DNA from: an uncultured Myxococcales bacterium
Lineage (GTDB): Bacteria > Myxococcota_A > UBA9042
Direction: 5' to 3'
DNA: 64,000 nt
Assembly: GCA_903842345.1 (NCBI GenBank)
Contig: CAIMLR010000004.1
Coordinates: 248,001-312,000 of the forward strand
Shown here: piece by piece, positions 1,051-30,430 of the stretch
Layout: every line of letters begins with the position of its first letter
Position numbering within the stretch: position 1 is the first letter of the stretch
Position numbers and translations under genes: made by a program
Notes under the pieces: generated by a model
What the model was told of the DNA's origin: nothing
The model's database searches: none
What the model saw: the letters and a program-made list of their open reading frames with translations, nothing else

Positions 1051-4000
1051 TCACAGGCACGCGCCCGCCGCGCACGCCTTGCCGACATCGCACTGGCTGC
1101 CGTCGCCGAGCAGGACGTGGAAGCAGCCGCCGTGAATCGCGTCGCAGCGGTCGACCGTGCACGGGTTGCCGTCACTGCAGTCCTGCCAGCCTTTGCTCAC
1201 GCACGGCCCCGATTCGGCGCACGTCGCGTTGCCCCACGCGTCGGTGAGATAGCCGCCAGAGAGCAGGCCATCCGCGAATGGCCGCAAACGCCAGGGGTTA
1301 TTGAAGGCGATGCTCGCCCACTTCTGCACCAGATTGCCCCACGCATCGTAGTGCCAGACCGACGTCGCATCGGAGACCAGAAACCCATCGGGCAGTTGCG
1401 CGAGCTCAAATGAGCCAAATGGCCCCAACTCCTTCTGCGAAATGGTCTTGGTTAGCGGATTGAGCAGCCGCGCCGTGACGACGCCATTGTTGCCATTGTC
1501 GCCCAGCACCAGCAGACCTTCGGGCAACGTCGCGATCTGGGCGTTGATGATGTAGTTCGACTTCGCGTCGAGGTCCACGACCTGCAGTACTGCCCCGATC
1601 GTGTCCATCTGCACCAGCCGCGCGGTGCCGAACGGGCCGACGCCGGCAAGGACCAGGTCGCTGCCCACGATCGCCATCGACTGCGCTTTGAGTGATGACG
1701 TCGTCTGCTGCTGGCTCAGCACGTTGCCACTCAGATCAACCGTAGCCATCCACGCCTTGCCCGCCTGCTGCCCGCCGATGACGATCTGCCCGTTCACCTC
1801 CGCCATGCCGACCGCGTGCACGCCCGCGCCGCCGGGAATGGGCTGATGCGCCACGAGCTTGCCGGCGCTGTCGACGACCCAGACGCTGGGCACGAACGTG
1901 TCATCCCACTTCGAGTCGCTCACGCCGCAGAACCTGCCCGCGGCCATGACCAGCGTCGGTGTGTTTTCGGAAGCGGTCACGCCATCGCCCGGGCCGAACG
2001 TCTTGGTCCAGATCGTCTTGCCGAAGCGATCCGTGCGCAGCCAGACGACGCCGACTTTGCCCGACAGGTCCGCGTGCGCCGCGAGCCAGCCGTCGGGCAG
2101 CGCCAGGAGCCCTTCGCTCCCGAAGAAGGCTTTGACGGGTCCAAGGCTGTGGGTGACGACGCACGCGCCGCCCGTGCACACGTTGCCGCAGCCGTCGCCG
2201 CAGCTCGTGCCGTTGCTGACCGGGACACTGGCGCAGGCGCCGCTTACGCAGGTTTCGACGGTGCACGGGTTGTCGTCGTTGCAGGGCTTCACCGATGCGA
2301 GCGGCTTGTGGCTGCAGCCGGATTGACCGCTTGTGCACGCGTCGATCGTGCATGGGTCGCCGTCGTCACACGTGGCTTGGGTCTTCCACTGGCAGTTGCC
2401 TTTGGAGATGCAGACGCCGGTCGAGCCGCATGCGTCCTGGCAGGCCGTGCCGTCGGGCAAGGTGGTCCACGTGCAGCCGTTCGCGAGCGTGAAGCTGACC
2501 GCCGCGCAGCCGTAGCCGCTCGGGCAGTCCGCGACACTCTTGGGGCCGTCGTGCCAGCAGCCACCGTGGCTGGCGTCGCACGCGTCAACGGTGTAGGCAA
2601 GGCCATCGTCGCAGTCGGTCGGCGTGAGCGCACTGCACGGTCCGGATGAGCCGCAGTCGCCGTTCCCCCACGCGTCAAAGGTCGCGAGCGCCTGATGCTG
2701 CTCGTACTGGACCCAGCCGGCGACCGCGATTCGCTTGTCCGTGATGGCGAACTGCGCTGGAGAAACGACGCTCGCGATCGAGGTCGAGGTCCCTGCGTGG
2801 CCCTTCGCGTCGAGGTGGACAGCATAAAGGCTTGGCGGGTCGTAGCGGAGCGCAAGAAACCCGCCGGGGGCCTGGCGCAACGCTCGAATGGCGCCGCTGT
2901 ACGCGAAGTCGTTGCTCCAGAGCTGCTTGCCGCTCGCGTCGGTCCGGAACACGAACGGATAGCTGTAGCTGCCGCTGGTTTCCGTACCGCCGAACGCGAA
3001 CCCGTCGGGCAGCGCGACCAGCCCCGCCGGGAACGCGTTGCCGTAGACGTGATGCCAGAGCTCGACGCCGCTCGCGTCCGTGCGCACGAGCCAGAGCTGC
3101 CCCTTGCCGTTCGGCGCGGTGTCGCCAAGCAGCGCGTATCCGTCCGCGAGGGCGCTGACGGCCACCAACTCGTCATCGCCCGCGGAGTCGTACTGGCCGG
3201 TCCACAGCAGGTTGCCGACCGCGTCCGCCCGCACCAGGAGTCCATCGTGTTTGCTCGCGGCCGCCTGTGTTTGGCCCGCCGCAACAAGTCCGTCCTTCAC
3301 GAGCGCCACCGCCACCAGGCTGCTCGTCACGGTCGGCTCGCCTGCCAACTCCCAGCTCACCGTGCCGGCTTTGTCGAGACGTCGCAGTGACCACGCCTTG
3401 GGCCCCTGGCCCGCCAAGTACAGCCCGTCGCCAGCATCCGCCAGCGCGTACGTGAAGCGATCGGCCAGCGCGCCGCCCACTTGCTGGGAGACGATCTTGC
3501 CGCCGGCGTCCATGCGCAAGAGCCACGGAATCGTCGACCAGTTGTCGTTCGTGCCGGCCATCGCGTAGCCATCGGCCAGGATCGCGACCGCGGAGGGCTT
3601 GCCGGACGGCGTCCCGGCCTGGTCGTAGATGTGCACGCCGACTTGGGCGTTGGCCTTACACACGCCGCTGCCGCACACGTCGCCGAGGCCGCAAGCATCT
3701 GTGCACGTTGTGCCGTCGGGAAGCGCGGTATGGGTGCAGCCGTCGCCGAACGCGCAGGCGTCGCTGGTGCAGGGTTCACCGTCGTCGCAGTTGCTGGGTA
3801 CGCCGCCGACGCACTGGCCGGCCGTGCATGCGGCGCCGATGACACATGGCGTCGTGGAGCAGGGACCAGAGATTGGCGTGTGCGTGCAGCCCGTCGTCGC
3901 GTCGCAGCCGTCGCTCGTGCACGGGCTGTCGTCGTCGCACGCGGGTGCGGCGAGGTGCACGCAGCCGACCGACACCACGCAGCTGTGGACGGTGCACGCA

Positions 4001-4950
4001 AGGCCGTCGTCGCAGCCGCCCCAGCTGGAGACGCAAGCGCCGTCCTGGCAGCTGTCGCCGGTGGTGCAGGCGTCGCCGTCGTCGCACGTGCCGGTGCCGG
4101 GCTTGTGGGTGCAGCCCTTGACCGGGTCGCAGGCGTCAGCGGTGCAGGCATTGCTGTCGTCGCACGGCTTTGGCAGGTGAATGCAGCCGACTGACGGTTT
4201 GCAGGCGTCCTCGGTGCACGGGTCACCGTCGTCGCACGCAATCTTGCTGCCGCCCGTGCACACGCCGGTCGCGCAGCTTTCACCCGTGGTGCAGGCGTCG
4301 CCGTCGTCGCACGCGCCGGTGATCTTCACGACCGGCGTGCACGCGCCCGATGCCACGTTGCACGTCGACTGCCAGCACGCGCTCTTGGTCGCGCACGAGT
4401 CGTCAGCGCCGTCGTCGGTGAGGCCGTTGCAGTCGTCATCGACGCCGTTGCAGACCTCCGGCGCCGGGATGCGGGCGTTGCAGGCCAGCCAATCGCCGAG
4501 GTCGACGCAGATTGTCGGGCCGCTGCATTTGCCGCTGGCGTTGCTGCGCTCGCACGTGCCGGCGAGCTTGTGGCTGAAGGCCCATTCGCTGCACTCACAT
4601 TTGCCGGTGTTGGGCGCGCAATGGCCGCCGCTGCAGCTGTAGGCGTCGGGGCAATCGCTGGTGGCGCTGCAGGCAAAAGAGCAGAAAGTGCCGGTCGTCA
4701 CAGCGGCGTCGCTGTAGCAATGGCCGATGGCAGTGGCGCCCGTGGCGGTGCAGTCGGCGTCGGCGAGGCACGGGCTGCAGAGCGCGTCGGAGGTGAGCAG
4801 GACGGCGGCGGCGCTGACCTCGCCGGGCAAATCGGCGGAAGCGACGTCGACGGCAACCACTGCGTCGAACGTAGGCTCGGTCCCGGGCGCGACCGCGGGC
4901 GAGGTGCACGCGCAGGCGAGAAACGCCACCAGCTCGATTTTGAAGCCCAT
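1051..4950 (-). CDS. Giant Cys-rich lipoprotein with CDDGD repeats, MopE motif and propeller-like repeats
   Basis: A predicted 1,299-residue surface protein. I place the start at ATG 4950 because it gives a short lipoprotein signal (FLAC, Cys13); the in-frame extension upstream only reads through promoter sequence. The Cys-rich head contains EVCNGVDDDCNGLTDDG near residues 165-181, the MopE-type putative metal-binding motif. About ten CDDGDxCT/CTxDxC units follow. Two stretches of LVRTDASG/GLYLAGQ-type repeats look like beta-propeller (delta-60/PQQ-like) blades, separated and closed by more CDDG units. Such mosaics are common in Myxococcota and relatives, but their roles are mostly unknown. 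Likely exported and Ca2+- or disulfide-stabilised; adhesion is only a guess. Monocistronic. Confidence 0.8.
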   Translation of the reverse strand: MGFKIELVAFLACACTSPAVAPGTEPTFDAVVAVDVASADLPGEVSAAAVLLTSDALCSPCLADADCTATGATAIGHCYSDAAVTTGTFCSFACSATSDCPDAYSCSGGHCAPNTGKCECSEWAFSHKLAGTCERSNASGKCSGPTICVDLGDWLACNARIPAPEVCNGVDDDCNGLTDDGADDSCATKSACWQSTCNVASGACTPVVKITGACDDGDACTTGESCATGVCTGGSKIACDDGDPCTEDACKPSVGCIHLPKPCDDSNACTADACDPVKGCTHKPGTGTCDDGDACTTGDSCQDGACVSSWGGCDDGLACTVHSCVVSVGCVHLAAPACDDDSPCTSDGCDATTGCTHTPISGPCSTTPCVIGAACTAGQCVGGVPSNCDDGEPCTSDACAFGDGCTHTALPDGTTCTDACGLGDVCGSGVCKANAQVGVHIYDQAGTPSGKPSAVAILADGYAMAGTNDNWSTIPWLLRMDAGGKIVSQQVGGALADRFTYALADAGDGLYLAGQGPKAWSLRRLDKAGTVSWELAGEPTVTSSLVAVALVKDGLVAAGQTQAAASKHDGLLVRADAVGNLLWTGQYDSAGDDELVAVSALADGYALLGDTAPNGKGQLWLVRTDASGVELWHHVYGNAFPAGLVALPDGFAFGGTETSGSYSYPFVFRTDASGKQLWSNDFAYSGAIRALRQAPGGFLALRYDPPSLYAVHLDAKGHAGTSTSIASVVSPAQFAITDKRIAVAGWVQYEQHQALATFDAWGNGDCGSSGPCSALTPTDCDDGLAYTVDACDASHGGCWHDGPKSVADCPSGYGCAAVSFTLANGCTWTTLPDGTACQDACGSTGVCISKGNCQWKTQATCDDGDPCTIDACTSGQSGCSHKPLASVKPCNDDNPCTVETCVSGACASVPVSNGTSCGDGCGNVCTGGACVVTHSLGPVKAFFGSEGLLALPDGWLAAHADLSGKVGVVWLRTDRFGKTIWTKTFGPGDGVTASENTPTLVMAAGRFCGVSDSKWDDTFVPSVWVVDSAGKLVAHQPIPGGAGVHAVGMAEVNGQIVIGGQQAGKAWMATVDLSGNVLSQQQTTSSLKAQSMAIVGSDLVLAGVGPFGTARLVQMDTIGAVLQVVDLDAKSNYIINAQIATLPEGLLVLGDNGNNGVVTARLLNPLTKTISQKELGPFGSFELAQLPDGFLVSDATSVWHYDAWGNLVQKWASIAFNNPWRLRPFADGLLSGGYLTDAWGNATCAESGPCVSKGWQDCSDGNPCTVDRCDAIHGGCFHVLLGDGSQCDVGKACAAGACL

Positions 4951-4993
4951 TGAGTTCAGGGTGTTGCCGCTCGCGGTTGTTCCGTCGTTGTCG

Positions 4994-5022
4994 ACTGTGC
5001 GCGCGGATCGATGCGGCGTCAA
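4994..5022 (-). promoter_or_regulatory. Promoter of the giant Cys-rich lipoprotein
   Basis: On the minus strand: TTGACG (5022-5017), 17-bp spacer, CACAGT (4999-4994). The -35 is good and the -10 matches only xAxAxT. It lies 44 bases upstream of ATG 4950. Confidence 0.4.
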
Positions 5023-5088
5023 TTCGGAAGGCCGGGGGTGAGGCGGCGCAGCGGTTGCGTGAGCGCGATGCCATCCCGAAGTCAGCGT

Positions 5089-5117
5089 TTGCACCCACCT
5101 CCGCAGCGGCGTATCCT
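5089..5117 (+). promoter_or_regulatory. Promoter of the MNT/HEPN pair
   Basis: TTGCAC (5089-5094), 17-bp spacer, TATCCT (5112-5117), 36 bases before ATG 5154. Nearly the same as the orphan promoter at 690-718, including flanking bases. Confidence 0.65.
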
Positions 5118-5153
5118 GCCACGAGCAGTGCACCGCCGCCGCATCAGGCTGTC

Positions 5154-17436: not shown

Positions 17437-18279
17437 TCAGCGCGGCTCGGCCTTGCCCGCCATGATCCGCTCACCCAGCGCGGCAAAATGCCCGGTCAAT
17501 ACGTCCGCATGGTGCCGCGTCTCGACCGGATCGACGTTCGGGTGCACCGTAAAGAGCTGCCCCGAGCGGGCCACGTAATCGGGCAGGCGCAGGGCCGCGA
17601 GAAGCGCGTCGCGCGCCGCAACCGGATCGGCGTCAATTCGCAGCGCAGCGTTCATGATTTTGCGCCGCAGCGCGGCAAAAAGGAACATCGGCGAGCCATT
17701 CATGTCCGCGGCCACGTGGTGGAATTCCGCCGGCCAAGTGTCGTCGAAATTCCGGGTCAAGGGCTCCCAATCCGCGCCTTGGCGCGCCGCCAGAATCAGC
17801 GAAAACAGCCCAACCTGGCCGAGAAAATGCTCCGGAGCAAAGAACTTCTCGGCGTGACACAGGTCGTGGAGCGCGAACTCAAAGTTGCTGGCCTCGTGAC
17901 CGGTGGGCACGCCTTCTGGCAACAGCGAGACAATGCGTTCGCCGCGCGCCTGCACGGCCAGCAGGTCCAGCGGATCGGGGATCGCGAACCGCGCGTGCAA
18001 CCGGCGCGTACCGTGCGCCCAGGCGTTCAGGCACTCCGCGACCTGCTCCTCCACGCGGTAGACGTGGCGCTCCGACAGCGTGGCGACGGCTATGTCATCG
18101 ATCTCGCACGGCAACTGTGGGTTACGCACACCCTGCCGCCAGCGCCGATCGGCCGTGCGCATCGCGCCGCGCAGGACAAACGTGCAGGCCAAAACGCCGG
18201 GCTGGACAATCGCGGCCTCGCCAGCTGCGAGGGCGGCGCGCCAATGCGCGTCAAGTCCGGGCAAAGCGTCAACGTTCAC
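17437..18279 (-). CDS. Unknown protein coupled to cyanophycin synthetase genes; His/Glu-rich helix
   Basis: 280 residues, no signal peptide, no family recognised. It looks mostly helical. A striking cluster, EFALHDLCHAEKF (Glu134, His138, His142, Glu144), is followed by EFHHVAADMNGS (Glu185, His187, His188). Together these resemble a di-metal site in a helical bundle, but this is inference. TPEGVPTGHE-like and RFAIPDPLDLL segments are other likely conserved patches. Its ATG overlaps the stop of the Mur-ligase-like gene by four bases (ATGA), and that gene overlaps cphA the same way. It is thus the third gene of a tight cyanophycin operon. A role in polymer processing or arginine/aspartate supply is possible; nothing in the sequence proves it. 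Confidence 0.72.
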   Translation of the reverse strand: MNVDALPGLDAHWRAALAAGEAAIVQPGVLACTFVLRGAMRTADRRWRQGVRNPQLPCEIDDIAVATLSERHVYRVEEQVAECLNAWAHGTRRLHARFAIPDPLDLLAVQARGERIVSLLPEGVPTGHEASNFEFALHDLCHAEKFFAPEHFLGQVGLFSLILAARQGADWEPLTRNFDDTWPAEFHHVAADMNGSPMFLFAALRRKIMNAALRIDADPVAARDALLAALRLPDYVARSGQLFTVHPNVDPVETRHHADVLTGHFAALGERIMAGKAEPR

Positions 18280-19937
18280 GACTCAACCGCTCCTGCCGCA
18301 CGCAACTGGGCAATCGCCGCGGAAAAATCGTCGTGGATGAGCAGGATCAGCAGATGCCCGGGCTGGGCGTCGCGCAGCGTCTCGGCGATGCCGCTCGGCT
18401 CATCCGCAGTCGTGACAAGCGCGGCCTCGGGCACGCCTTCAAGCGTGTAGTAGCGGTGCAGGACCGTCGTGATTTCAGCCTTTTCCCGACCGCGCAGGTA
18501 GTGGTCCGTGTCCTTGAGGACCACGCGATCCGGCCGAAACGCGAGCGTTGCGGTCACGAGCGCGTGCATCAGCGCATCGGTGCGGTCGCCCGCCTGGCCA
18601 ACAAGCAACGTGCGCTGGGTTGACGGCCACGCGTCAATCAGCGCCGCCACTTGCCGGACGCCATCGGGATTGTGGGCAAAGTCGACGAGGATCGTCGCAC
18701 CGTTCAGGTGCAGCACGTTGGCGCGCCCCGGGTTGTCGGCGACCGTGGAGCCAAAAGCCGCCAGACCGGCCGCGATTGCCGGAACCGGCACAGCCATCGC
18801 ATGCGCCGCGAGCGTCGCCGCCAGGGCGTTGGCCACGTTGTGCGGCGCGTGGCCAGCAAACGTCGCCGGAATGTCCGCGAGCCGCGCGACGAATTGCCGA
18901 CCCGCCGCCGTTTCGAGGAAGATCGCCCCGTCCTGCGTCCACGCGCGCGTGCGCCCGGGCAGGCACGAAAGGTCGCCGTAGTGCTGCGAGAACCACGCGA
19001 GCGCGTAGGGCCCATCGGGCAAATGCAGGCGTTGGGCCGCGGCCACGAGCGGCTCGCACCCGGCGTTCAGGAGCAACAGGCCGCCGGGACGGATGCCTCT
19101 GCGAATCGCCAACTTGGCGTCCGCCATCGCATCTTCCGTCGCCACTTGCGGGTCCAGATGGTCGTCGCTGACGTTGGTCACCAGCGCAGCGTCCGCCCAC
19201 CGCGACGCCAAACCGCGCCGCAGCAAACCACCGCGCGCCGTCTCGAGCGCCGCCGCCTGCACCTGCGGATTGCGCAACACCTGGCGCGCGCCGCCCGGGC
19301 CAGTCCAGTCGCCCGGCGTCACAAGGCGGCCGTCCAACATCAGGCCGTCTGTCGACGTATTGCCCGCGAACAGACCGTGATGCCGCAGGATGCGCGCGAG
19401 CATCCGCGCCGTCGTCGTCTTGCCGTTGGTCCCGGTGATGAGCGCGTGCGGGATCGTCTGGAGCCGCTCCGGCACATCCGGCGTCGCGGGCAGCTCATCC
19501 AGCTGCCACGTCTGGCCATGCGCGCCCAGACCCAACGTCAGGCCCTCGTCGTCCAGCAGCCACGGCAGGCCTCGCGCATCCGCCGCCGCGATCCACGCCA
19601 TCGCCCGCGGCTGCGCCTCCGCATCCGCCAGCGCGTGCAGGGCGACCAGTTCCACCGGCGCTTCTGCACACGCCGCCTCGGCAAGCTCTGCCGCAGTTCC
19701 GAGTTGATCGATCGGCGCCGTGAACGCCCACGTCGCACATCCCGCACCCGTCGTCCGGCCAAACGCGGGATCGGGCCACGCCAACGCCGCCGCCGCCGCG
19801 GTCACGCGCTGACGCCATGACGCAAACGCACCCTCCGCGTCGTCACCCGGGGCGAACTCAACTTCCACCGCAGCGCCGGGAGCCGCTAACCACCAGCTTG
19901 GCCCCGTCAGGCGCCGCGCAGCAACGGCTCGCATCAA
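18276..19937 (-). CDS. Cyanophycin-synthetase-like Mur ligase lacking the ATP-grasp domain
   Basis: 553 residues. Residues 165-540 are a Mur-ligase-type module: P-loop ITGTNGKTTTARML (168-180), LETARGGLLRRGL, TNVSDDHLD, GHAPHNVANALAA and LVDFAHNPDGV. These match blocks of the full CphA encoded just upstream (e.g. AITGTNGKTTTSRML, LETARGGMLRAGL). Residues 1-150 resemble the CphA N-domain (ADARGLPWLLDD vs EARGIPWIRLND). The ~270-residue ATP-grasp module, which adds Asp in CphA, is missing: the N-domain joins straight to the Mur module. So it may ligate arginine or a related residue only, or act as a CphA partner. Overlaps cphA and the downstream gene by 4 nt each. Confidence 0.88.
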   Translation of the reverse strand: MMRAVAARRLTGPSWWLAAPGAAVEVEFAPGDDAEGAFASWRQRVTAAAAALAWPDPAFGRTTGAGCATWAFTAPIDQLGTAAELAEAACAEAPVELVALHALADAEAQPRAMAWIAAADARGLPWLLDDEGLTLGLGAHGQTWQLDELPATPDVPERLQTIPHALITGTNGKTTTARMLARILRHHGLFAGNTSTDGLMLDGRLVTPGDWTGPGGARQVLRNPQVQAAALETARGGLLRRGLASRWADAALVTNVSDDHLDPQVATEDAMADAKLAIRRGIRPGGLLLLNAGCEPLVAAAQRLHLPDGPYALAWFSQHYGDLSCLPGRTRAWTQDGAIFLETAAGRQFVARLADIPATFAGHAPHNVANALAATLAAHAMAVPVPAIAAGLAAFGSTVADNPGRANVLHLNGATILVDFAHNPDGVRQVAALIDAWPSTQRTLLVGQAGDRTDALMHALVTATLAFRPDRVVLKDTDHYLRGREKAEITTVLHRYYTLEGVPEAALVTTADEPSGIAETLRDAQPGHLLILLIHDDFSAAIAQLRAAGAVES

Positions 19938-22738
19938 TCGGCCTCTTCCGGCCGCGGCAGTCGCACGCCGCGCTCATCGCGCACCAGACCGGCGACGCTC
20001 AGCGGCACTTCATCCTCCTGCGGCTGCGCGCTCACGCCCTGCGGCTCCTGAGCTTCCTCCGGCGGCCGCCCCCCCTGCTGCTGATGGTGGTAGATGATTT
20101 GCTTCCAGGACCGCGTGACCTTGTCGCAGAAGACCAACAGCAAATCTCCGGGCTTGCAGCGATCCAGCGCGTCCTGCAGTGCGTCGACTTCGTGCGTGAT
20201 AATCGTCAGCTTGTCGGGCGGGAAACCGTTGGCGATCAGGCCTTTTTGCAGCAGCAACGGCACCTCGCGGTCGGCGCGACCGCGCGCGTTGTCGTCCCGC
20301 CGCAGGATGATTTCATCAAACGAGTGCGCGGCAATGCGCGCCACTTCCAGGATGTCTGAATCGCGGCGATCGCCCGGCGCCGCCAACACGCACACGCGCT
20401 TGCCACCTTGCCCCAACACGCCGCCCGCCACGAGGTTGTCGACCAGCGCGCACATCGCCTGGACCGCCGCCGGATTGTGGCCGTAGTCGAGCAGCACCTT
20501 GAAACCGAGGCCGTCATAGACGTTCATGCGCCCCGGCGTCTGGAAGAACGTCGAGTCAAACGTCCGCAGCCCGTGGCGAATGTCGTCGAGCTTGACGTGC
20601 ATCGCGTAGGCCATCGCCGCGGCAAACATGGCGTTCTGCACGTTGTGCATCGCCTTGCCTTCCAGCGTCGCCGGAATCAGGTGCGTCCAGAGCAGCGGCA
20701 GGTGCTGGCCGCGGTCGTACAGCGCAATCATGTGACCGTTGACGCCCGCCTCGAGCGCGACCGCCTTGCCGCCCGCGCGGATGTGCTCGCGGACCAGCGC
20801 GTGCGCCGGATTCATCGTGACGTACCACACGTGCTTGGCCTGGCTGTGGTCGGCCATGTGCAGGCACAAGTCGTCGTCGGCGTTGAGCACCACGGCTTCA
20901 CGCGCCACTTCAATCGGAATCCGCTTCACCGCCGCAAGCTGCTCCAGCGTGTCCACGCCGCCGAGCCCCAGGTGGTCCGCGCTCACGTTCAGGCAGCACG
21001 CGACGTCCGGCCAGCGATAGCCAAGCCCCGCGCGCAACATGCCGCCCCGCGCCGTCTCCAGCACCGCCACCGTCACTTTCGGGTCGCGCAGCACCATTTG
21101 CGCGGACATCGGCCCGGTCATGTCGCCTTCCACCGTCCGCTGGCCGTCAATGTAGACGCCATCGGTCGTGGTGAGCCCGACAATCTCGCTGCGCAGCTTG
21201 AAGATGTGCGCCAACATGCGCGACGTCGTCGTCTTGCCGTTCGTGCCGGTAATCGCGGCGATGGGAATGCGCGCCGACGTGCCCGGCGGAAACAGCATGT
21301 CGATGACTTTGCCTGCCACGTCGCGCGGCTTGCCTTCGCTGGGCGCCACGTGCATGCGGAAACCCGGCGCAGCGTTCACTTCGCAGATCGCGCCGCCGAC
21401 TTCCCGGTAGCTTCGCGTCATGTCCTGCGTCAGAAAATCCACGCCGATCACGTCCAGGCCAATCGCGCCCGCGACGCGCACGGCCATCTCCACGTTGTCC
21501 GGGTGCACGGAGTCGGTCAGGTCAATCGCCGTGCCGCCGGTCGACAGGTTGCCCGTCGAGCGCAGGTACAGGATCTCGCCCTCGGGCAGCACGCTCTCGC
21601 GCGTCACGCCCGCCTGCTCCATCAGCCGCTCAGCCTGGTGGTCAAACGCCAGTCGGGTCAGCACTTTTTCATGACCGATGCCGCGCCGCGGATCGCTGTT
21701 CACGATGTCGACGAGCTCGCCAATCGTGTGCTTGCCGTCGCCGACCACATGGCCGGGCACGCGCTTTGCGACCGCGACGAGTTCGCCGTTGATCACGAGC
21801 ATCCGGTGGTCAAAACCCGCGACAAACGTCTCCACCAACACCGCGCGACTGTGCTCCGCGGCCTTTTCAAACGCGAGCGCGACCTGGTCTGAAGTCGTCA
21901 GGTTGATGGACACGCCGCGCCCGTGGTTGGCGTTGAGCGGCTTGACGACGACCGGAAAGCGAATCGACCGCGCGGCTTTGACCGCGTCCTCCGCCGAATA
22001 CACCATCTCCTGACGCGGCACAGGCAGCCCCAGATCCGCAAGAATCTTGTTGGTCTCCTGCTTGTCGCTGGCGATCTCCACGGCGATGTGCCGCGTTTCG
22101 CTGGTGACCGTCGCCTGGATGCGCTTCTGCAGCTTGCCGTGACCAAACTGCACGAGCGAATGGTCGTTCAGGCGAATCCACGGAATCCCGCGCGCTTCCG
22201 CCGCCCGCACGAGGCTGCCCGTCGACGGCCCCAGAGCGCGGCGCTGCGCTTGGCGGATCAGGTCGTCCAGCTCCAATGAAAAGTTGAAGTCCGGATCCAG
22301 CTTGGCGTCCGGCGCCAGTTCCGCCGGCACCAGGTGGTGCAGCAGCTTCATCGCGAGCTCCGCCGCCGCTTGGGCGACGCGCGCTTCTTCGTACTCAAAC
22401 ACCACGTGATATTCACCGTGATGCCCGGAGCCGCGCGTCTTGCCAAAGCTCACGCGCGCGCCGGCGAGATTCTGCAGTTCAATGGCGACGTGCTCCAGGA
22501 CGTGGCCCATCCAGGTGCCGCCATCTTGGCGCAGCCGCTGGACGAAACCGCCGCGCACGCCGGGACTGCACGTGTGTTCCCAAAGGGTCGGCACGCGCTC
22601 CAGGAGCGCATCGACAAACCCCGGGATCGCGTCCGAGGGCTGGTCCTCAAGCGGCCCCAACTGCAACGTCCAGCGCATGACTGGAAAGTGCGCGTAAAGA
22701 TTGGGACCTTGATAGACGCGGGTTTCTGTGACGTGCAT
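19934..22738 (-). CDS. cphA: Cyanophycin synthetase
   Basis: 934 residues. It makes multi-L-arginyl-poly-L-aspartate from Asp, Arg and ATP, without ribosomes. Three parts are visible: an N-domain (1-160, WMGHVLEHVAIELQNLAG is typical); an ATP-grasp domain (about 220-485, DKQETNKILADLGLPVP, VVVKPLNANHGRGVS, EVNAAPGFRMH) that adds Asp to the backbone; and a Mur-ligase domain (about 490-880, ITGTNGKTTTSRML, LNVSADHLGLGG, LLDYGHNPAAV) that adds Arg. Length is near the family norm. The C-terminus adds a Gln/Pro/Glu-rich tail. First gene of a three-gene operon with 4-nt overlaps. No cyanophycinase (CphB) is in the window. Confidence 0.96.
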   Translation of the reverse strand: MHVTETRVYQGPNLYAHFPVMRWTLQLGPLEDQPSDAIPGFVDALLERVPTLWEHTCSPGVRGGFVQRLRQDGGTWMGHVLEHVAIELQNLAGARVSFGKTRGSGHHGEYHVVFEYEEARVAQAAAELAMKLLHHLVPAELAPDAKLDPDFNFSLELDDLIRQAQRRALGPSTGSLVRAAEARGIPWIRLNDHSLVQFGHGKLQKRIQATVTSETRHIAVEIASDKQETNKILADLGLPVPRQEMVYSAEDAVKAARSIRFPVVVKPLNANHGRGVSINLTTSDQVALAFEKAAEHSRAVLVETFVAGFDHRMLVINGELVAVAKRVPGHVVGDGKHTIGELVDIVNSDPRRGIGHEKVLTRLAFDHQAERLMEQAGVTRESVLPEGEILYLRSTGNLSTGGTAIDLTDSVHPDNVEMAVRVAGAIGLDVIGVDFLTQDMTRSYREVGGAICEVNAAPGFRMHVAPSEGKPRDVAGKVIDMLFPPGTSARIPIAAITGTNGKTTTSRMLAHIFKLRSEIVGLTTTDGVYIDGQRTVEGDMTGPMSAQMVLRDPKVTVAVLETARGGMLRAGLGYRWPDVACCLNVSADHLGLGGVDTLEQLAAVKRIPIEVAREAVVLNADDDLCLHMADHSQAKHVWYVTMNPAHALVREHIRAGGKAVALEAGVNGHMIALYDRGQHLPLLWTHLIPATLEGKAMHNVQNAMFAAAMAYAMHVKLDDIRHGLRTFDSTFFQTPGRMNVYDGLGFKVLLDYGHNPAAVQAMCALVDNLVAGGVLGQGGKRVCVLAAPGDRRDSDILEVARIAAHSFDEIILRRDDNARGRADREVPLLLQKGLIANGFPPDKLTIITHEVDALQDALDRCKPGDLLLVFCDKVTRSWKQIIYHHQQQGGRPPEEAQEPQGVSAQPQEDEVPLSVAGLVRDERGVRLPRPEEAD

Positions 22739-22997: not shown

Positions 22998-25900
22998 ATG
23001 TTCCTGCCCTCACCCCGTTTCACCGTTGGTGTCTGTGCCATCGCGGCCCTCGCCGTCCTGACTTCCGCTTGTGGCGACGCGCACACGGCGGGAACGGGCA
23101 GTGACGACCTCGGCATCGGTCTGGGCCTGCAGCCCGGTCAGCTCGCGTCGCTCGAGTCGGTCGACACGCAGCTCAACGAGACCAAGGTCACCGCGGGAAC
23201 GACGGTCACAGTGACGTGCATCGGCCAGCCGGGCGAGGTGAAGATTCCGCTGCCGACGTACAACGTCACGCCGAACAAGGGCGTCACGACGGACAAGGCC
23301 AACTTGACGGCGACGCTGACGGGCACGTACCAGGTGCAGTGCACCCTGCCCGACCGCCAGACCAATCCCAAGGACAAGTCGGCCATCCTGACCGTCAACG
23401 CCGGTCCGGCGACGGCTCTGACGACGACGATCAATCCCGGCACGATTCACGCGGGCGACGTCGCGAGCGCGGCTTGCTCCGGCAAGGACCAGTATGGCAA
23501 CGACGTGGGCAAGGACGGCATCGCGTGGACGTTGGCGATCGACCCGCCGACTGCTGGCACGATCACGGACCTGACCGTCACCGGTTGGATCGCGGGCAAC
23601 GCGACGGTCAAGTGCGGCCTCGACAGCTCCCCTGACGCCACCAGCGATGGCGCGCCGCTCGTCATCACCGCGGGCGCCGCGTACAAGACCACCGCGACCG
23701 TGACGCCGCCGACGTTTGAAGCCGGTGCCGGCAGCACGCAGGTCACCTGCGCCGCCGTGGATAAATGGGGCAACACGGTTGACGCGTCCGGCGCGACGCT
23801 CATGTACCCCAAGGACCTGACGTCGGGCAGCGGCGGGCTGACGACAACGAAGTCCGGCAAGTACGACATCCTGTGCATGATGACCGACGTCACCAAGGAC
23901 AACGCCACGCCGGGCACGCTGACTGTGACGCCGGGCGCGCCGATCTCGATGACGCTGATGCCCAAGCCCAAGCAGCCTTTCTACAAGATCGACGACACGA
24001 TCAAGATGTTTGGCCTGGGCAAGGACAAGTTTGGCAATGACGTGCCGGAGATGCCGCTGCAGCAGCCGTGCGCGGTCGATCCGCCCGAGGGCGTGACGGT
24101 GAACGCTGGCGGCAAGAGCTACTCCTTCAACACCGACGGCCACTACCACTTCGCCGGCATCAGCCAGGACTACCCGAGCCTCTCGGCGGAGACCACGCTC
24201 ACGTGCGATTCCGTCGGTCCGATGGTGCTCATCACGGAGCCGAAGCGCGGCGCAACGCTCAACGGCGACCCGCTGGTCCACGTCAAGGGCACCGTGATCG
24301 ACGCGACCAGCGCGCTCAAGTCCTTCACCATCGGCGGTCAGGTCGTGACGGTCGCGGGCGATGGCTCGTTCTCTTTCGACATTCCGAGCGTCTGGGGCAT
24401 GAACCCGATCGAATGGGAAGCGCATGACGAGTGGGACAACATCTCCACCGGCGTGCAGACCTACTACTACTCGACCAAGTGGTACCTGTCTGACTTCAAC
24501 GCGCCCAAGGACAGTGAAATCAACGACGCGATCGGCATCTGGCTGTCGCAGACGGTCCTCGACCACCCGCCGCATGATCACGTCCACCCGCATGACATCG
24601 CGACGGTGCTGGAAATCGTCCTTGGTTCGCTGGATCTGAGCTCGCTCCTCGGCGCGAACGGCATCCCGGTGAACGTCCCGATCGCCGGCCCGATCGCCAT
24701 CAACGGCAACATCTACATCAAGAACGTCAAGCTGGGCGACCCGTCGAAGAACGACGGCTATCCGGTCATCGCGATGGAAGTCCTGCAGGGCGGCATCCAC
24801 GTCGGCGCGACGATCTACTCGTTCTCGGCGGACATTGAGATGGACATCCAGACCGCGTTTGGCCTGCCGCCCGTCAAGGTGACGATCCAGATCACGGCCG
24901 ACAAGATCGACCTGGGCATTGACCTGTTCCTGACCAAGGATCCCGCGACCGGCAAGCTGGTGAGCACGGCGAAGAACACGACGCTGCAGTTCACCAACCT
25001 GAAGGCGCTGCCGATCAATGGCCCGCTGTCCAATGTGATCAACCCGATCCTCGGCCAGATTGAGTCGGCGATTCTCGCACCGCTCACCAACCTGCTGACG
25101 GGCATCCTCGGGCCGACGCTCAACAACACCATCGGCGGTGCGCTGGGCAACGCGCTGGGCGCGCTCGCGATCAACACGACGATTCCGCTTGGGCCGTTCA
25201 TCGGCAAGGGCGCGCCGGCCAACCTGAAGCTGACGTCGGACATCGGGACGCTGTCGTTCCAGGCCAAGCAGGGCATCGTGTTCGGTCTGGCGGCGTCCAT
25301 GACGGCGGAGAAGAAGGTGCCGCACGACATTCTCGGCTCGATTGGTCGCGCCGGTTGCCTGGCGGACAAGGCCAAGCCGGAAGTCTTCAACCCGACTGAG
25401 AAATACGGTCTGGAAGTGGGCCTGGCGGACGACTTTGTCAACCAGCTGCTGGAAGCGATTTGGAATGGCGGGCTGCTGCAGTTGGCGCTGGACTCGTCGG
25501 TGCTTGGCAACGTCGATCTGTCGACGTATGGCGTGAAGGACCTGTCGGTCGAGACCGATTTCCTCCTGCCGCCGATCCTGAACACCTGCGCGGACGGCGA
25601 CTGGCTGACGTTGCAGATCGGCGATCTGGGCATCCACGCGATGCTGAGCTTCAGCGGCACGCCGATTGACATGTACGCCTACGCGATGGTCACGGCCAAG
25701 GTGAAGATTGAGGCCGTTGCGGACCCGAAGAACCCGGGTTCCAAGGCGATTTCCCTGACGCTCGACCCCAAGAGCGTCGCGCTCAAGCTGGAAGTCACCA
25801 AGATCAACTCGGAGGCGCTGGCGTTCAAGGACATCTTCGTGTCGCTGATCACCGGCCTCGTGCCCAGCCTCGTCGGCGGCATCTCCGGTGGCCTCGGCGC

Positions 25901-26030
25901 GATTCCGCTGCCGTCCATCGACCTGTCGACCCTGTCGCCGTCGATCCCCAAGGGCACGACGCTCGGCATCGACATTCAGGAAATCGCCAACGTCGCGGGC
26001 TACACGTACATCCGCGGCTCGATCAAGTAG
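22998..26030 (+). CDS. Large lipoprotein with Ig-like repeats and a possible TULIP/BPI-like half
   Basis: 1,010 residues. ATG 22998 opens a lipoprotein signal ending LTSAC; the in-frame upstream extension has no signal and is rejected. Residues ~45-400 hold four or so Ig-like beta units of about 90 residues (TVTCIGQPGE, VASAACSGKDQYGNDV, VTCAAVDKWGNTVD), with recurring Cys pairs and a KDKFGNDVPE-type loop. An Ig/cadherin-like piece (VLITEPKRGATLNGDPLVHVKG) follows. The last ~400 residues are amphipathic beta/alpha sequence including DDFVNQLLEAIWNGGLLQL near residue 813. That is reminiscent of the BPI/TULIP lipid-binding fold; low certainty. Probably anchored in the outer membrane. Followed by the PAD lipoprotein gene. 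Confidence 0.75.
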   Translation: MFLPSPRFTVGVCAIAALAVLTSACGDAHTAGTGSDDLGIGLGLQPGQLASLESVDTQLNETKVTAGTTVTVTCIGQPGEVKIPLPTYNVTPNKGVTTDKANLTATLTGTYQVQCTLPDRQTNPKDKSAILTVNAGPATALTTTINPGTIHAGDVASAACSGKDQYGNDVGKDGIAWTLAIDPPTAGTITDLTVTGWIAGNATVKCGLDSSPDATSDGAPLVITAGAAYKTTATVTPPTFEAGAGSTQVTCAAVDKWGNTVDASGATLMYPKDLTSGSGGLTTTKSGKYDILCMMTDVTKDNATPGTLTVTPGAPISMTLMPKPKQPFYKIDDTIKMFGLGKDKFGNDVPEMPLQQPCAVDPPEGVTVNAGGKSYSFNTDGHYHFAGISQDYPSLSAETTLTCDSVGPMVLITEPKRGATLNGDPLVHVKGTVIDATSALKSFTIGGQVVTVAGDGSFSFDIPSVWGMNPIEWEAHDEWDNISTGVQTYYYSTKWYLSDFNAPKDSEINDAIGIWLSQTVLDHPPHDHVHPHDIATVLEIVLGSLDLSSLLGANGIPVNVPIAGPIAINGNIYIKNVKLGDPSKNDGYPVIAMEVLQGGIHVGATIYSFSADIEMDIQTAFGLPPVKVTIQITADKIDLGIDLFLTKDPATGKLVSTAKNTTLQFTNLKALPINGPLSNVINPILGQIESAILAPLTNLLTGILGPTLNNTIGGALGNALGALAINTTIPLGPFIGKGAPANLKLTSDIGTLSFQAKQGIVFGLAASMTAEKKVPHDILGSIGRAGCLADKAKPEVFNPTEKYGLEVGLADDFVNQLLEAIWNGGLLQLALDSSVLGNVDLSTYGVKDLSVETDFLLPPILNTCADGDWLTLQIGDLGIHAMLSFSGTPIDMYAYAMVTAKVKIEAVADPKNPGSKAISLTLDPKSVALKLEVTKINSEALAFKDIFVSLITGLVPSLVGGISGGLGAIPLPSIDLSTLSPSIPKGTTLGIDIQEIANVAGYTYIRGSIK

Positions 26031-26133: not shown

Positions 26134-26199
26134 GCATGGCGCGCCGGGCTTGCCAGTCCGATGCGACGGTACGTTTACGCTTTTTCCCGCGAGATCGTC

Positions 26200-28161
26200 A
26201 TGCACAATAAGCTGTTCTTCAAGCGTTTCTCCACCCGAAACGGCCTTTCAGCGGCGGCGCTCTGCATGCTCGCGAGCTGCGGGACGACGACGACGCTGTC
26301 GCCGACGGACGATGTGGCAAGTGACACGGGCGCCGACGTTGCGCTTGTCGTCACGCCGATCGTCGATCTGGTCGTGGATGCGAACCGCGACGGCGTGGCC
26401 GATCTCGCCAATGCCGACGATCAGGCGCATGGCAACGAATGGAGCGCGGCGTTTGGCGCGTCCTATCTGGTCAACCTGGACGACGACGACGGGGACAAGA
26501 TTGAGGACGTCCTCGACACCTTCATCAACGGCAGCGATGACGAACTCGACCTCGCGCCCATCAGCGTCGCCGCTTGGCCGGACGCGCCCGATGGGTACGT
26601 CGGCGTGCTGCAACTCGACAATCCCGAGAAAGTCCGCCTTTGGAAGAACGGCGCCAACGGCTGGGAGCTCGTCGCCGGCGTGAACAACGACTGCGTGCCG
26701 ACCTTCTCGTCCTGCACCGGCGCGGACGACACCTGCTCGGACACGACCGCCAAGGCCGGCATCCTGACCGCCTCGGAACTGCGCACGGGCATCAAGCTCG
26801 GCGTGGAAGGCCGCGACTTCCGCCGCGACGAGACGTGGGACGGCAACGTGCGCGTCACGATGTGGATCGGCCAGGGCGCCGACGCGAAAGCCAAGCCGAT
26901 TCCGACCAAGGCGCTGGCCGACGGCAAGAAAACCGTGCTCCTGCACGTCGCGCCGTGGATCCTCAACGGCAACACGACGCCGTTTGACGAAGTCCGCTCC
27001 GCCAACTACTTCAGCGAGTTCACTGCCGACCTGAAGACCGCGCTCGGCGCGACCGGCGCCAACGTCAAATACACGATGTACGGCAATGGCTCCAGCGGCG
27101 GCAAATGGAATGACGCGTGGACCCAGGACTACTACCAGACGGCGTGGACCTCCATTCCGCAGGGCAAGGACGCCGACGGCAAGACCAAGATTCACGGCAT
27201 GCGCGTCGTCAACGCCCGCCCGTGGGGCCGGTATGACGCGAACTGCGTGGCCAAGCTCATGCCCATCACGTGGCTGCGCGCCAACTACCTGAACAAGGAC
27301 AAGGCCGTCATCGCCATCTACCAGGTGCCCAACACCGGTTCCAGCTTCGACAGCCACGGCAACCACGACCTGCTGCCGGCGTATGAGAACGGTCAGGACA
27401 AGTTCCCGATCGGCCGCATCATCCACGGTTCGGGCATTCTGCCGGAAACGCACGCGTTCTATGACGCGCAGGGTCCGCAGTCGCCGTCGCTTGTCGTAAA
27501 GACCGATTGGCTGCTCGTGGGCCACGTGGACGAAGTGCTGAGCTACACGCCCGCCAAGACGGATCGCGGCTGGAAGCTGCTGATCGCGTCCAACAACCTG
27601 TCCAAGCAGATGCTGCAGAAGCTGGCGGACGACGGCCACGCCGACGCGCTGCTGTTTGACGGCAAGAACACGTACAAGAGCGCGACGGACGGCACGATGG
27701 TCCCGGCGGCGCGGTCGGTGACGGCGACGTTGAATGACTCGGACCTGATGCAGTGGTCCCAGGAAGCGCAGGCGGAGGCCGACGGCGTTCGCAAGACGGT
27801 CAAGGACGCGACGGGCCTGACGGATGCGGAGATCATCGAGATGCCGTTCCTGACCGAGGAGGTCGATGGCGGCAAGATCGCGTGGCAGCCGGGTACCGCC
27901 AACATGCTGCTTGTCGGCAACACGATGGAGATTCCCAACCCGTTTGGTCCCAAGATCAACGGCGTGGACGTGTACGCGCAGGACCTGAAGGACCGGCTGG
28001 GCACGCCGCTCAACGCGCTGGGCTCCGATGGCCAGGGCATGAAGGTGTTCCTGATCGACGATTTTGAGGGCTACCACATCAACGAAGGCGAAGTGCACTG
28101 CGGCACCAATCCGGAAGGTCCGCCGCAGCCGAGCATGCTCTGGTGGCTGATCAAGCACTGA
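26200..28161 (+). CDS. Protein-arginine deiminase (vertebrate-type PAD) lipoprotein
   Basis: 653 residues. It converts peptidyl-arginine to citrulline, Ca2+-dependently in animal PADs. A lipoprotein signal ends LASC, then a short linker. The PAD middle domain shows its acidic Ca-binding strand (VVDANRDGVADLANADD, LVNLDDDDGDKIED). The catalytic domain holds all four key residues: Asp310 (DAWTQDYY, cf. human PAD4 Asp350), His442 and Asp444 (VGHVDEVLSYTPA; His471/Asp473) and Cys634 (GEVHCGTNPEG; Cys645). NMLLVGNTMEIPNPFGP and SFDSHGNHDLLP also match the animal family closely. The N-terminal cupredoxin-like PAD domain is absent. Start ATG 26200 is chosen because it begins the signal peptide. Two secreted proteins follow. 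An outer-surface or periplasmic enzyme is inferred. Confidence 0.93.
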   Translation: MHNKLFFKRFSTRNGLSAAALCMLASCGTTTTLSPTDDVASDTGADVALVVTPIVDLVVDANRDGVADLANADDQAHGNEWSAAFGASYLVNLDDDDGDKIEDVLDTFINGSDDELDLAPISVAAWPDAPDGYVGVLQLDNPEKVRLWKNGANGWELVAGVNNDCVPTFSSCTGADDTCSDTTAKAGILTASELRTGIKLGVEGRDFRRDETWDGNVRVTMWIGQGADAKAKPIPTKALADGKKTVLLHVAPWILNGNTTPFDEVRSANYFSEFTADLKTALGATGANVKYTMYGNGSSGGKWNDAWTQDYYQTAWTSIPQGKDADGKTKIHGMRVVNARPWGRYDANCVAKLMPITWLRANYLNKDKAVIAIYQVPNTGSSFDSHGNHDLLPAYENGQDKFPIGRIIHGSGILPETHAFYDAQGPQSPSLVVKTDWLLVGHVDEVLSYTPAKTDRGWKLLIASNNLSKQMLQKLADDGHADALLFDGKNTYKSATDGTMVPAARSVTATLNDSDLMQWSQEAQAEADGVRKTVKDATGLTDAEIIEMPFLTEEVDGGKIAWQPGTANMLLVGNTMEIPNPFGPKINGVDVYAQDLKDRLGTPLNALGSDGQGMKVFLIDDFEGYHINEGEVHCGTNPEGPPQPSMLWWLIKH

Positions 28162-28207: not shown

Positions 28208-29200
28208 ATGATGAAGCACAAGATGATTTCCCTGGCGCTGACGATGACCTCCCTGGGTCTGGCCATTCCCGCGCTGGCCAATGAGCCGACCGGGCTGGCG
28301 ATCCAGGCCGGGCTGTTGGCGCCTGCGGACCGCACGGCGCTGCAGAACGCGGTGATGGCCGATCGGCTGGCGCGGCCGGCGGCGTATGACGTGGTGGCGG
28401 TGGCCAAGGGCTGTCGGCCCGAGGGCTGGATGACGGCGCGGACGCCGGAGCCAAATTGCAGCCGCGAGTTGCGCGCGCTGGGTCAGGCGGGGCTGCTCCC
28501 GATGCTGAGCGCGCTGGCGCTGGATTGGGCGCCGCACGGCCTCTCGACGGACGCGGCAAAGCGCACGCAGGAAGAGCGCGCGCTGACCGTGGGCATGCTG
28601 GAAGCGATCGGCGCGCTGCGCGACACGCGCGCCCGTCCGGTGCTGCACGCGATGTGGCTGCAGGCCCGTGGCCGTCCGGAGATGCTCGCGCCGCTTGGCC
28701 GGCAGATGACGGTCGCGCGCGCCAATGCGGAGGCCCTGGGTCGGCTCGGCGGCGCGCTGGAGCTGCAGGCGCTGCAGTCCCACCTCCGCGCGGAAGATCC
28801 GCTGTACACGGCGGCGATTGCCGGTCTGGGCGCATGCAAGCGCACGGATTCCGCGCAGTTGCTGGTGACGGCGCTCGCGGCCGCGAAGGATGATGCGGCG
28901 CAGCGTTGGATCGTGCAGGCGATGGGCGCGCTGGCGTCGAGCTGGTCGTGGAACGCGCTGGGGCGCGTGCGCATGGAAGACGGCCTGCGGGTCCGCCAGC
29001 GTGTGACGGAAGCGCTGATTCCGCTGCTGGCCAAGACCCAGGGCGAGTCGCGCGAACGCGTGGTGCAGTCCCTGCAATTGGCGGACCTGCCGGACCTGCC
29101 GGCGCGCCTGACGCCGCTGCGGGCGACCGCGGATGCGACGCTGCAGCATGACATCGACGACCTGCTCGGCCGCGTCGCGCGGGCGCATACCGCGCGCTAG
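28208..29200 (+). CDS. Secreted HEAT-repeat-like protein
   Basis: 330 residues with a Sec signal (cleavage after ALA-NE). The mature part is built of helical pairs such as ERALTVGMLEAIGALRDTRARP, NAEALGRLGGALELQALQSHL and DPLYTAAIAGLGACKRTDSAQL, the HEAT/PBS-lyase-like pattern seen in many myxobacterial periplasmic proteins. Two Cys near the start (KGCRPEG, NCSRE) may form a disulfide. It lies 46 bases after the PAD gene, with its own weak GAGG ahead of a tandem ATG. Probably a periplasmic scaffold; no enzyme motif seen. Confidence 0.7.
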   Translation: MMKHKMISLALTMTSLGLAIPALANEPTGLAIQAGLLAPADRTALQNAVMADRLARPAAYDVVAVAKGCRPEGWMTARTPEPNCSRELRALGQAGLLPMLSALALDWAPHGLSTDAAKRTQEERALTVGMLEAIGALRDTRARPVLHAMWLQARGRPEMLAPLGRQMTVARANAEALGRLGGALELQALQSHLRAEDPLYTAAIAGLGACKRTDSAQLLVTALAAAKDDAAQRWIVQAMGALASSWSWNALGRVRMEDGLRVRQRVTEALIPLLAKTQGESRERVVQSLQLADLPDLPARLTPLRATADATLQHDIDDLLGRVARAHTAR

Positions 29201-29209
29201 CCCCGGCTG

Positions 29210-30430
29210 ATGAAGCGCCTCCTGACGCTCGCGCTGCTGCTGACCGCGAGCCAAGCGCGGGCCGACGAGACGCCGGCGTTTTCCAAGACGACGGCGCTGC
29301 AGGCCAAGCTGCTGACTTTCCTGACTGGCGGCCAGCCGCCGGGCCAGCCCAACGACGCGATTCCCGGCCTGACACAGCACGAATCGCCGCCGACTTGGCT
29401 GGTGCATTGGCAGTCGTCCCTGCTGAGCGAGCTGCAACACCCGGACCTGAGCCAGAGCCACCATCCGCTGCTGCGCGCGACGCTGCAAGTCGTCCAGCTG
29501 CAGGGCGCGACAAAGACCGCGGCACAGCCAATTCTCGCGGCGCCCCTGCCCGTGGACACGCTGGCGTGCCCGCACGACGCGCCGGTCCGCGTGCACGTGC
29601 AAGTGCTGCATCCGGGCGATGACGTGACGCCGCCGTGGCTCGGCGTGGACATCGCATGCGTGGACGCAAAGCCAACGCTGCGCCGGCAGGTACGTCTGCT
29701 GGTTCAGGCAACTGCGCAAGGCCAGGTGCAGCGGGCGTTTGGCCTCGCGTGGACGCACAACGTGCCGCTGACGTCCCAGCCGGAATCCCAGGCGACGCCA
29801 GAATTTGTGCTGCACCCGACGCTGCTGGACAAGCGGTTCACGTGGCTCGTCGCGCTGCCGACCGGCGGCTGGTTGGCGCAGTTGCAGGCCGTGCGGACCG
29901 GGACGTGGCTGTCCGACAACGCCCTGCCGCGTTTTGAGGACATGGCGACGGGCGACGACGAGTCCCGCGACGCGGACCGCTACACGCTCCTGCTGGCCGA
30001 GGATGGGACGCCGCGCGCCGCGCTGCTGCACGGTCCCATCGATGCGGACGGCCGCCTACCGCTGTGGCGGGAAGGCGCGTGGGACCTCGCGCTGCCGCAA
30101 CAGGTGGCCGATGAGCCGCTGCGGACGCTGATCCTGCAGCGCGTGGCCAAACCGGCGACTGCCGAAGGGTCCCATCTGGGCCGCGCCTGGACGCATGCGG
30201 GCTACGCGCTGTGGCAGGTGACGCGGGATGCGGTGCAGTCCGTGGAACTGCCGCTGGCGCCGCTGGATCAGGAGGGCGTGTGGGATTGCGACAGCGAGCC
30301 GCCGGTCCAGAGGCTGCTGTGCGTCTTTCGCCGGCTGGGGCCAAGCAGCGAGGCGACGACGGAGAAGCGCCAGTTCGCCGTGGTGCCGGGGCCGGTCGCG
30401 GCGTTCAAGCTGCTGCCTGCCAACGACTGA
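29210..30430 (+). CDS. Secreted protein of unknown function
   Basis: 406 residues with a Sec signal (LLLTASQARA-DE). The mature protein is rich in Leu/Gln/Thr with few Cys (LACPHDAPV, VDIACVDA, WDCDSE, LLCVFR, possibly two disulfides). Beta-type strands predominate (FTWLVALPTGGWLAQLQAV). No family recognised. It starts nine bases after the HEAT-like gene, so the PAD, HEAT-like and this gene likely share a transcript. It ends directly against the convergent SDR gene (TGA then TCA). Confidence 0.65.
   Translation: MKRLLTLALLLTASQARADETPAFSKTTALQAKLLTFLTGGQPPGQPNDAIPGLTQHESPPTWLVHWQSSLLSELQHPDLSQSHHPLLRATLQVVQLQGATKTAAQPILAAPLPVDTLACPHDAPVRVHVQVLHPGDDVTPPWLGVDIACVDAKPTLRRQVRLLVQATAQGQVQRAFGLAWTHNVPLTSQPESQATPEFVLHPTLLDKRFTWLVALPTGGWLAQLQAVRTGTWLSDNALPRFEDMATGDDESRDADRYTLLLAEDGTPRAALLHGPIDADGRLPLWREGAWDLALPQQVADEPLRTLILQRVAKPATAEGSHLGRAWTHAGYALWQVTRDAVQSVELPLAPLDQEGVWDCDSEPPVQRLLCVFRRLGPSSEATTEKRQFAVVPGPVAAFKLLPAND

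Follow-up and report, generated by a model that had tools for sequence, protein, structure and literature searches.

Protein-arginine deiminases (PADs) have been found in 0.76% of bacterial species (PMC8826395), and a 2022 review called their functions in bacteria and fungi completely unknown (PMC9174705). Two-domain enzymes (PADI), which have the domains PAD_M and PAD_C and no PAD_N, are known from fungi, actinobacteria, and proteobacteria (PMC8826395). Three-domain enzymes include vertebrate PAD1-4 and cyanobacterial PADI, and the surface-anchored deiminase of Porphyromonas gingivalis (PPAD) is a pentein-fold enzyme of another Pfam family, PF04371. Here we describe a PAD gene in a window of 64,000 nucleotides from an uncultured Myxococcales bacterium, the window being the whole stretch of DNA that was analyzed. 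We propose that this gene and the HEAT-repeat gene beside it encode a putative surface protein-citrullination module, composed of a two-domain lipidated PAD and a dedicated HEAT binder, and we put the probability of this reading at about two in three. The features on which the argument draws are as follows.

22998..26030, + strand: large lipoprotein upstream of the PAD, with a Glucodextran_B-like domain and a BPI/LBP match under the cut-off (Pfam)
26200..28161, + strand: PAD (PAD_M and PAD_C), predicted outer-membrane lipoprotein, 653 aa (PF03068, PAD4 match, orthologs)
26269..26280, + strand: lipobox LASC, residues 24 to 27 (predicted lipidated Cys27), after the n-region KLFFKRF and a hydrophobic stretch (sequence reading)
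26473..26550, + strand: PAD_M Ca3/Ca4/Ca5 loop with N92, D94, D96, D103, D106, D114, and D117 (PAD4-ligand alignment)
26929..28146, + strand: PAD_C catalytic domain, residues 244 to 649 (Pfam PF03068)
27127..27129, + strand: catalytic Asp310, D350 in PAD4 (PAD4 alignment)
27211..27231, + strand: NARPWGR, residues 338 to 344, a window-clade motif (clade alignment)
27298..27300, + strand: Asp367, the Ca4 "switch," D388 in PAD4 (PAD4 alignment)
27355..27369, + strand: HGNHD, residues 386 to 390, altered Ca1 segment, FGNLE in PAD4 (alignment)
27523..27531, + strand: catalytic His442 and Asp444, H471 and D473 in PAD4 (PAD4 alignment)
28099..28101, + strand: catalytic Cys634, C645 in PAD4 (PAD4 alignment)
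28208..29200, + strand: PAD partner, a HEAT-repeat alpha-solenoid with the Sec signal MMKHKMISLALTMTSLGLAIPALA (HEAT_2, AF2, adjacency)
28439..28441, + strand: partner Arg78, invariant in 57 of 57 sequences (alignment; AF2 pLDDT below 50 around the residue)
29210..30430, + strand: uncharacterized 406-aa protein, 9 bp after the partner gene, a family-level neighbor (neighborhoods)

The PAD open reading frame is intact from its ATG at 26200 to the stop codon at 28159 to 28161. An alternative in-frame start lies upstream at 26161, and no clear ribosome-binding site was seen upstream of the start codon. Pfam PF03068 matches residues 244 to 649 at 1e-59 (202.9 bits; cut-off, 25), and human PAD4 as a single sequence matches the protein at about 2e-36 (phmmer). 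PAD_M was under Pfam detection when the single sequence was used; a profile of 29 homologs aligned with PAD4 positions 113 to 661 (chain 116 to 664), which comprise PAD_M and PAD_C, at 3.6e-122. That the protein belongs to the PAD family is near certain. Because five relatives from other MAGs encode PADs that are 47 to 83% identical to it (best segment), a sequencing or frame artifact is excluded, and orthologs occur in all five members of the window genus that were searched.

The first-pass annotation, made from the window sequence, had read the gene as a lipoprotein carrying all four PAD catalytic residues and a Ca-binding middle domain, missing the N-terminal domain, and standing apart from the PPAD family. 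These points were borne out. D350, H471, D473, and C645 of PAD4 align exactly with D310, H442, D444, and C634 as numbered there, and each is conserved in 88 or 89 of 89 bacterial homologs; the loss of a catalytic residue, which would have counted against that reading, was not seen here. The 29-homolog profile covers PAD_M, and every Ca3/Ca4 ligand is present. Only about 24 residues separate Cys27 from PAD_M, so PAD_N is absent, and PF04371 gave no Pfam match to the protein. The AF2 model, built with six sequences in the input, reached a pLDDT of 43, and for that reason we make no claim about pocket geometry.

The lipobox of that annotation was likewise recovered, both by direct reading and under a looser rule; the strict rule misses it because Asn14 lies in or near the h-region. 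The strict rule detects a lipobox in 57 of the 84 distinct PADs from Myxococcota (less than 1 expected in shuffles); many of the misses are visible lipoboxes or N-terminally extended proteins. Lipidation thus appears to be a habit of the phylum rather than something special to this gene. No lipobox is present in the three Streptomyces/Embleya PADs, whose N termini look like ordinary Sec signals. From its sequence, the window PAD is likely a surface lipoprotein.

The main new result is the gene that follows, which the first-pass annotation of the PAD had overlooked. It starts 46 bp past the PAD stop codon, with GAGG preceding the start, and encodes a protein for which AF2 predicted a confident alpha-solenoid (pLDDT, 86; pTM, 0.86); a HEAT_2 domain was found in 29 of 31 partner homologs. 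The closest folds are the alphaRep binders (Foldseek, 2e-4), and Foldseek found no solved structure closer than these. The HEAT family shares its fold with those solenoid binders but differs from them in being exported (Sec signal) and in being found only beside PADs.

We counted HEAT adjacency over distinct loci with room for a neighbor, after same-genome duplicates were removed. A HEAT gene lies beside the PAD and on its strand at 22 of 22 loci of the window clade and at 34 of 34 loci of a second long clade (56/56 in total; for the clades, see the tree below). With two upstream exceptions it is downstream. None was found at the 25 short-clade loci or the 3 Streptomyces/Embleya loci. Across 379 Myxococcota genomes there are 66 strong HEAT homologs, 64 of which adjoin a PAD, lying downstream of it at 48 to 400 bp between matched domains except for two that lie upstream at 642 bp. 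Each of the remaining two is a fragment in a genome that does have a PAD, though on a different contig; every PAD-free genome lacks a strong homolog. Weaker matches, at about 1e-11, come from HEAT proteins of a generic kind. Of two HEAT-less PADs that were inspected, one belongs to the short clade and the other looks degenerate. Pairwise distances among PADs and among their HEAT partners are correlated (Mantel r = 0.81; 0 of 2,000 permutations as high), which, together with the pairing, indicates that the module is inherited together. It is very likely that the two proteins are functionally linked.

Arg78 is the only residue that is invariant among 57 distinct HEAT sequences, and the stretch around it is the only part of the model with a pLDDT below 50. 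It stands in a KRGR context in much of the second clade and in R-N/T-x-x-P in the window clade. Since the protein linked to this arginine deiminase has one strictly conserved arginine, placed on a flexible loop, that residue may serve as a substrate or pseudosubstrate. In one study cited by PMC10542456, RGG-motif proteins made up about one-fifth of PAD4 substrates, a weak parallel. We hypothesize from the genetic linkage that the HEAT protein is a binder, and from one conserved loop residue that it may be a pseudosubstrate; inhibitor, aiming device, and substrate are all possible roles.

Indirect evidence on what the enzyme acts upon comes from related loci. Across the family to which the window belongs, the genes run in the order large lipoprotein, PAD, HEAT, 406-aa protein. 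The large lipoprotein (22998 to 26030, + strand), of which most family genomes have several paralogs, is present in 22 of 22 family genomes; since PAD-free members carry it too, we rejected it as a PAD-specific partner. Five PAD-free genomes (G008, G009, G011, G014, and G017) of the family keep it and show no trace of PAD or HEAT. In place of the pair they have one or two lipoproteins of 800 to 1,000 aa with PF04371 (1e-25 to 1e-33) and the motifs EGGN, GHID, and AIHCIT, whose best PDB match is P. gingivalis PPAD (1.4e-10), with agmatine deiminases ranking lower. Some of these end in a MYXO-CTERM sorting tail, and a Cys-rich stretch is also present in the PF04371 reading frames L116, L117, L118, L119, L120, L100, and L096. 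Other genomes hold both types, in the order lipoprotein, PAD, HEAT, PF04371, 406-aa protein. By count, eight family genomes have PAD only, six have PF04371 of the PPAD-like type only, seven have both, and one, which is incomplete, has neither.

PPAD, a pentein deiminase, is likewise surface-anchored, and lipoproteins resembling it are found at the PAD locus of family members. It differs in its Pfam family and in having no PAD_M Ca sites. Two unrelated deiminases share one surface locus or replace each other there, which indirectly supports protein modification by the window PAD. This suggests that the Porphyromonas-type surface deiminase and the PAD module do related work, and protein deimination by the window PAD is, on sequence grounds, probable.

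An alternative hypothesis is that the PAD serves nutrition by deiminating free arginine, peptides, or some other small guanidine compound at the cell surface, with the HEAT protein as a structural accessory. R372 and R374 of PAD4, which we take to be contacts to the substrate backbone, have no conserved counterparts at the aligned positions of the window clade, although R340 and R344 lie nearby, and this makes peptidyl-arginine specificity uncertain. Related penteins use small molecules, and in this genus a synthetase for cyanophycin, an Asp-Arg polymer, is encoded just upstream. Nonetheless, PF03068 enzymes of known activity act on proteins, and the cyanophycin gene is no neighbor of PAD in other genera. 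The window genome has a separate PF04371 protein that matches at agmatine-deiminase strength, and the PF04371 enzymes at the PAD locus in relatives resemble PPAD more closely than they do agmatine deiminases. We therefore regard a nutritional role as unlikely. The synthetase itself lies at 19934 to 22738 on the - strand (TIGR02068, above the cut-off), followed by a Mur-ligase-like protein (18276 to 19937, - strand) that may be a shortened second synthetase. We also considered a link between the PAD and this arginine-rich polymer and set it aside: the two genes are neighbors only within the genus, and the PAD is predicted to be exported. Elsewhere in the window, a 1,360-aa protein (1051 to 5133, - strand) matches the Dictyostelium (slime mold) repeat PF00526 at 1e-29 and is probably a Cys-rich repeat protein.

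The strict pairing could also mean that the PAD is an antagonistic, toxin-like enzyme used against other cells and that the HEAT protein is a periplasmic immunity protein of the producer. PAD and HEAT occur one to one and are gained and lost jointly, the HEAT protein carries a Sec export signal, solenoids can be inhibitors, and predation is frequent in Myxococcota. The PAD is, however, an anchored lipoprotein by prediction, with no delivery domain; most genomes have a single PAD-HEAT module, no secretion apparatus was seen beside the PAD, and HEAT distances track those of the PAD, whereas immunity proteins are usually more diversified. We judge this explanation quite unlikely and retain the citrullination module as the preferred reading.

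The calcium sites, for which we took the PAD4 ligand lists from PMC3559651 and PMC13023937, show a mixed pattern. Sites Ca3 and Ca4 are complete in the PAD4 alignment (N92, D94, D96, D103, D114, D117, and the switch D367). At Ca5, D168 and E252 of PAD4 are present as D106 and E203, and E170 is a Phe. Ca2 is lost: E351, D369, S370, and N373 of PAD4 correspond to Y311, V336, V337, and R340. Ca1 is altered (E353Q, E411D, and FGNLE to HGNHD, PAD4 numbering). Within the window clade, Arg340, at the position of the Ca2 ligand N373, is Arg in 22 of 22 sequences, and the His at PAD4 position 410 and W347 are kept in all 22. By its position, Arg340 could possibly replace the charge of the calcium ion. 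Given the modified Ca1 site, Ca dependence is uncertain.

With Ca2 lost and Ca1 altered, the protein might be a pseudoenzyme or inactive remnant whose catalytic domain has degraded Ca sites, and one family member, L024, has indeed lost D473 and C645. The four catalytic residues and W347 are nevertheless invariant in 22 of 22 window-clade sequences, and the Ca-site changes are common to the clade and conserved, which argues against decay and makes an inactive enzyme very improbable. L024 (G035) is a divergent PAD homolog, with D473 changed to Ser, C645 missing, D350 changed to Glu, and no HEAT partner; it is likely a pseudoenzyme. L136 (G315:C121), a PAD-like frame with piecemeal matches and no HEAT, is possibly a decaying copy.

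A tree of 74 PADs over 542 columns was built with human PAD4 and bacterial PADs; it holds no cyanobacterial or fungal sequences, and PAD4 is a single long branch in it. PAD4 and a short Myxococcota clade fall on one side of a split with 100/99 support; the window clade, the HHL-type Myxococcota PADs, and three Streptomyces/Embleya PADs fall on the other. The window clade (21 tree rows, all Myxococcota) itself has 100/99 support, and forcing it together with PAD4 was rejected (AU P = 0.003). The phylogeny proposed in the first-pass annotation does not support the animal side, nor is its description of a "full vertebrate-type" enzyme supported: PAD_N is missing, Ca2 is lost, Ca1 is altered, and the tree separates the protein from PAD4.

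Compared with the two-domain PADI (PMC8826395; PMC9174705), the window PAD has the same domains and catalytic residues, keeps Ca3, has lost Ca2, and falls on the Streptomyces side of the tree. It differs in its lipidation signal, its HEAT partner, and its HGNHD and NARPWGR motifs. Its linker between PAD_M and PAD_C reads NGNT where sister clades have HHL, so that the triple-His linker motif of two-domain PADI is missing, and its switch position is Asp rather than the Gly of actinobacterial and fungal enzymes (PMC8826395). Because the linker motif is missing and the switch Asp is kept, we consider the window clade a distinct variant of the two-domain type. With vertebrate PAD1-4 and the cyanobacterial three-domain PADI it shares the catalytic tetrad, the Ca3/Ca4 network with the switch Asp, and a similar linker; it differs from them in lacking PAD_N, in its Ca1 and Ca2 sites, in its side of the tree, in its predicted export and lipidation, and in its pairing with HEAT. 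That this bacterium acquired an animal/cyanobacterial-type PAD (clade A of PMC8826395) is extremely improbable, since the identical catalytic residues, the retained switch Asp, and a linker (VAPWILNGNTTPFDEV) closer to that of PAD4 (VAPWIMTPNTQPPQEV) than to the HHL linker of other bacterial PADs are outweighed by the split and the AU test, which reject an animal-type identity within the present tree sampling, and by the absence of PAD_N and of the Ca2 ligands.

The first-pass annotation had also called such enzymes rare in bacteria, which holds across bacteria as a whole (0.76% of species, PMC8826395) and fails in Myxococcota, where PF03068 was above the cut-off in 94 of 379 genomes, 62 of 236 genera, and 5 of 5 genomes of the window genus. 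Ca sites 2 and 4 have been called exclusive to animals and late cyanobacteria (PMC8826395). The short Myxococcota clade keeps the Ca2 ligands E351 (27/27), D369 (25/27), and S370 (25/27). This clade (L060, L066, L057, L061, L084, and others) groups with PAD4, and most of its members have lost the Ca3/Ca4 ligand D179; at L077 (G126), two PAD genes of the short clade stand in tandem. A single genome can hold several PADs from different clades (L085/L110 in G283; L090 and L028 in G149), contradicting a published remark that no species holds both PAD types, and each of the four PADs of G283 has its own adjoining HEAT match. A mobile or phage origin found no support, with no match to the PAD in 50,697 phage records or in viral contigs; the only plasmid or megaplasmid relatives are four actinobacterial sequences at about 26% identity. 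A defense-system role was dropped, as PADLOC gave no match.

We postulate that the PAD is exported, lipidated at Cys27, and anchored on the outer membrane, where it would citrullinate arginines of proteins in the periplasm, on the surface, or outside the cell. Calcium from the surroundings would be bound by the Ca3/Ca4/Ca5 network, and the active-site Ca2 ion would be dispensable, with Arg340 possibly substituting for its charge. The HEAT protein, as a dedicated binder, would regulate the PAD or direct it to its targets, most likely through its loop arginine. Offered to the active site, that residue would act either as a pseudosubstrate, blocking activity while the PAD is being exported, or as a genuine substrate; this loop-arginine mechanism is a hypothesis that we consider less likely than not. 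The pair would be acquired or lost together, and close relatives have a Porphyromonas-type surface deiminase instead of it or alongside it. The fullest version of the proposal, a two-protein Myxococcota surface citrullination system in which the HEAT loop arginine switches or aims the PAD and the Porphyromonas-type deiminase does the same job in sister genera, is tentative.

We found no literature linking PADs with myxobacteria or with a HEAT partner (subscription literature lay outside the scope of the search), and as far as could be searched the PAD-HEAT pairing is unreported. A strictly linked, dedicated partner gene turns the function of bacterial PADs into a testable question. The survey further indicates that within a single bacterial phylum PADs are frequent and for the most part predicted surface lipoproteins. 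It also reveals, in a short Myxococcota clade, animal-type Ca2 ligands that had been described as confined to animals and late cyanobacteria, and it places deiminases of two unrelated types at a single locus. These results bear on the origin and the original purpose of animal citrullination.
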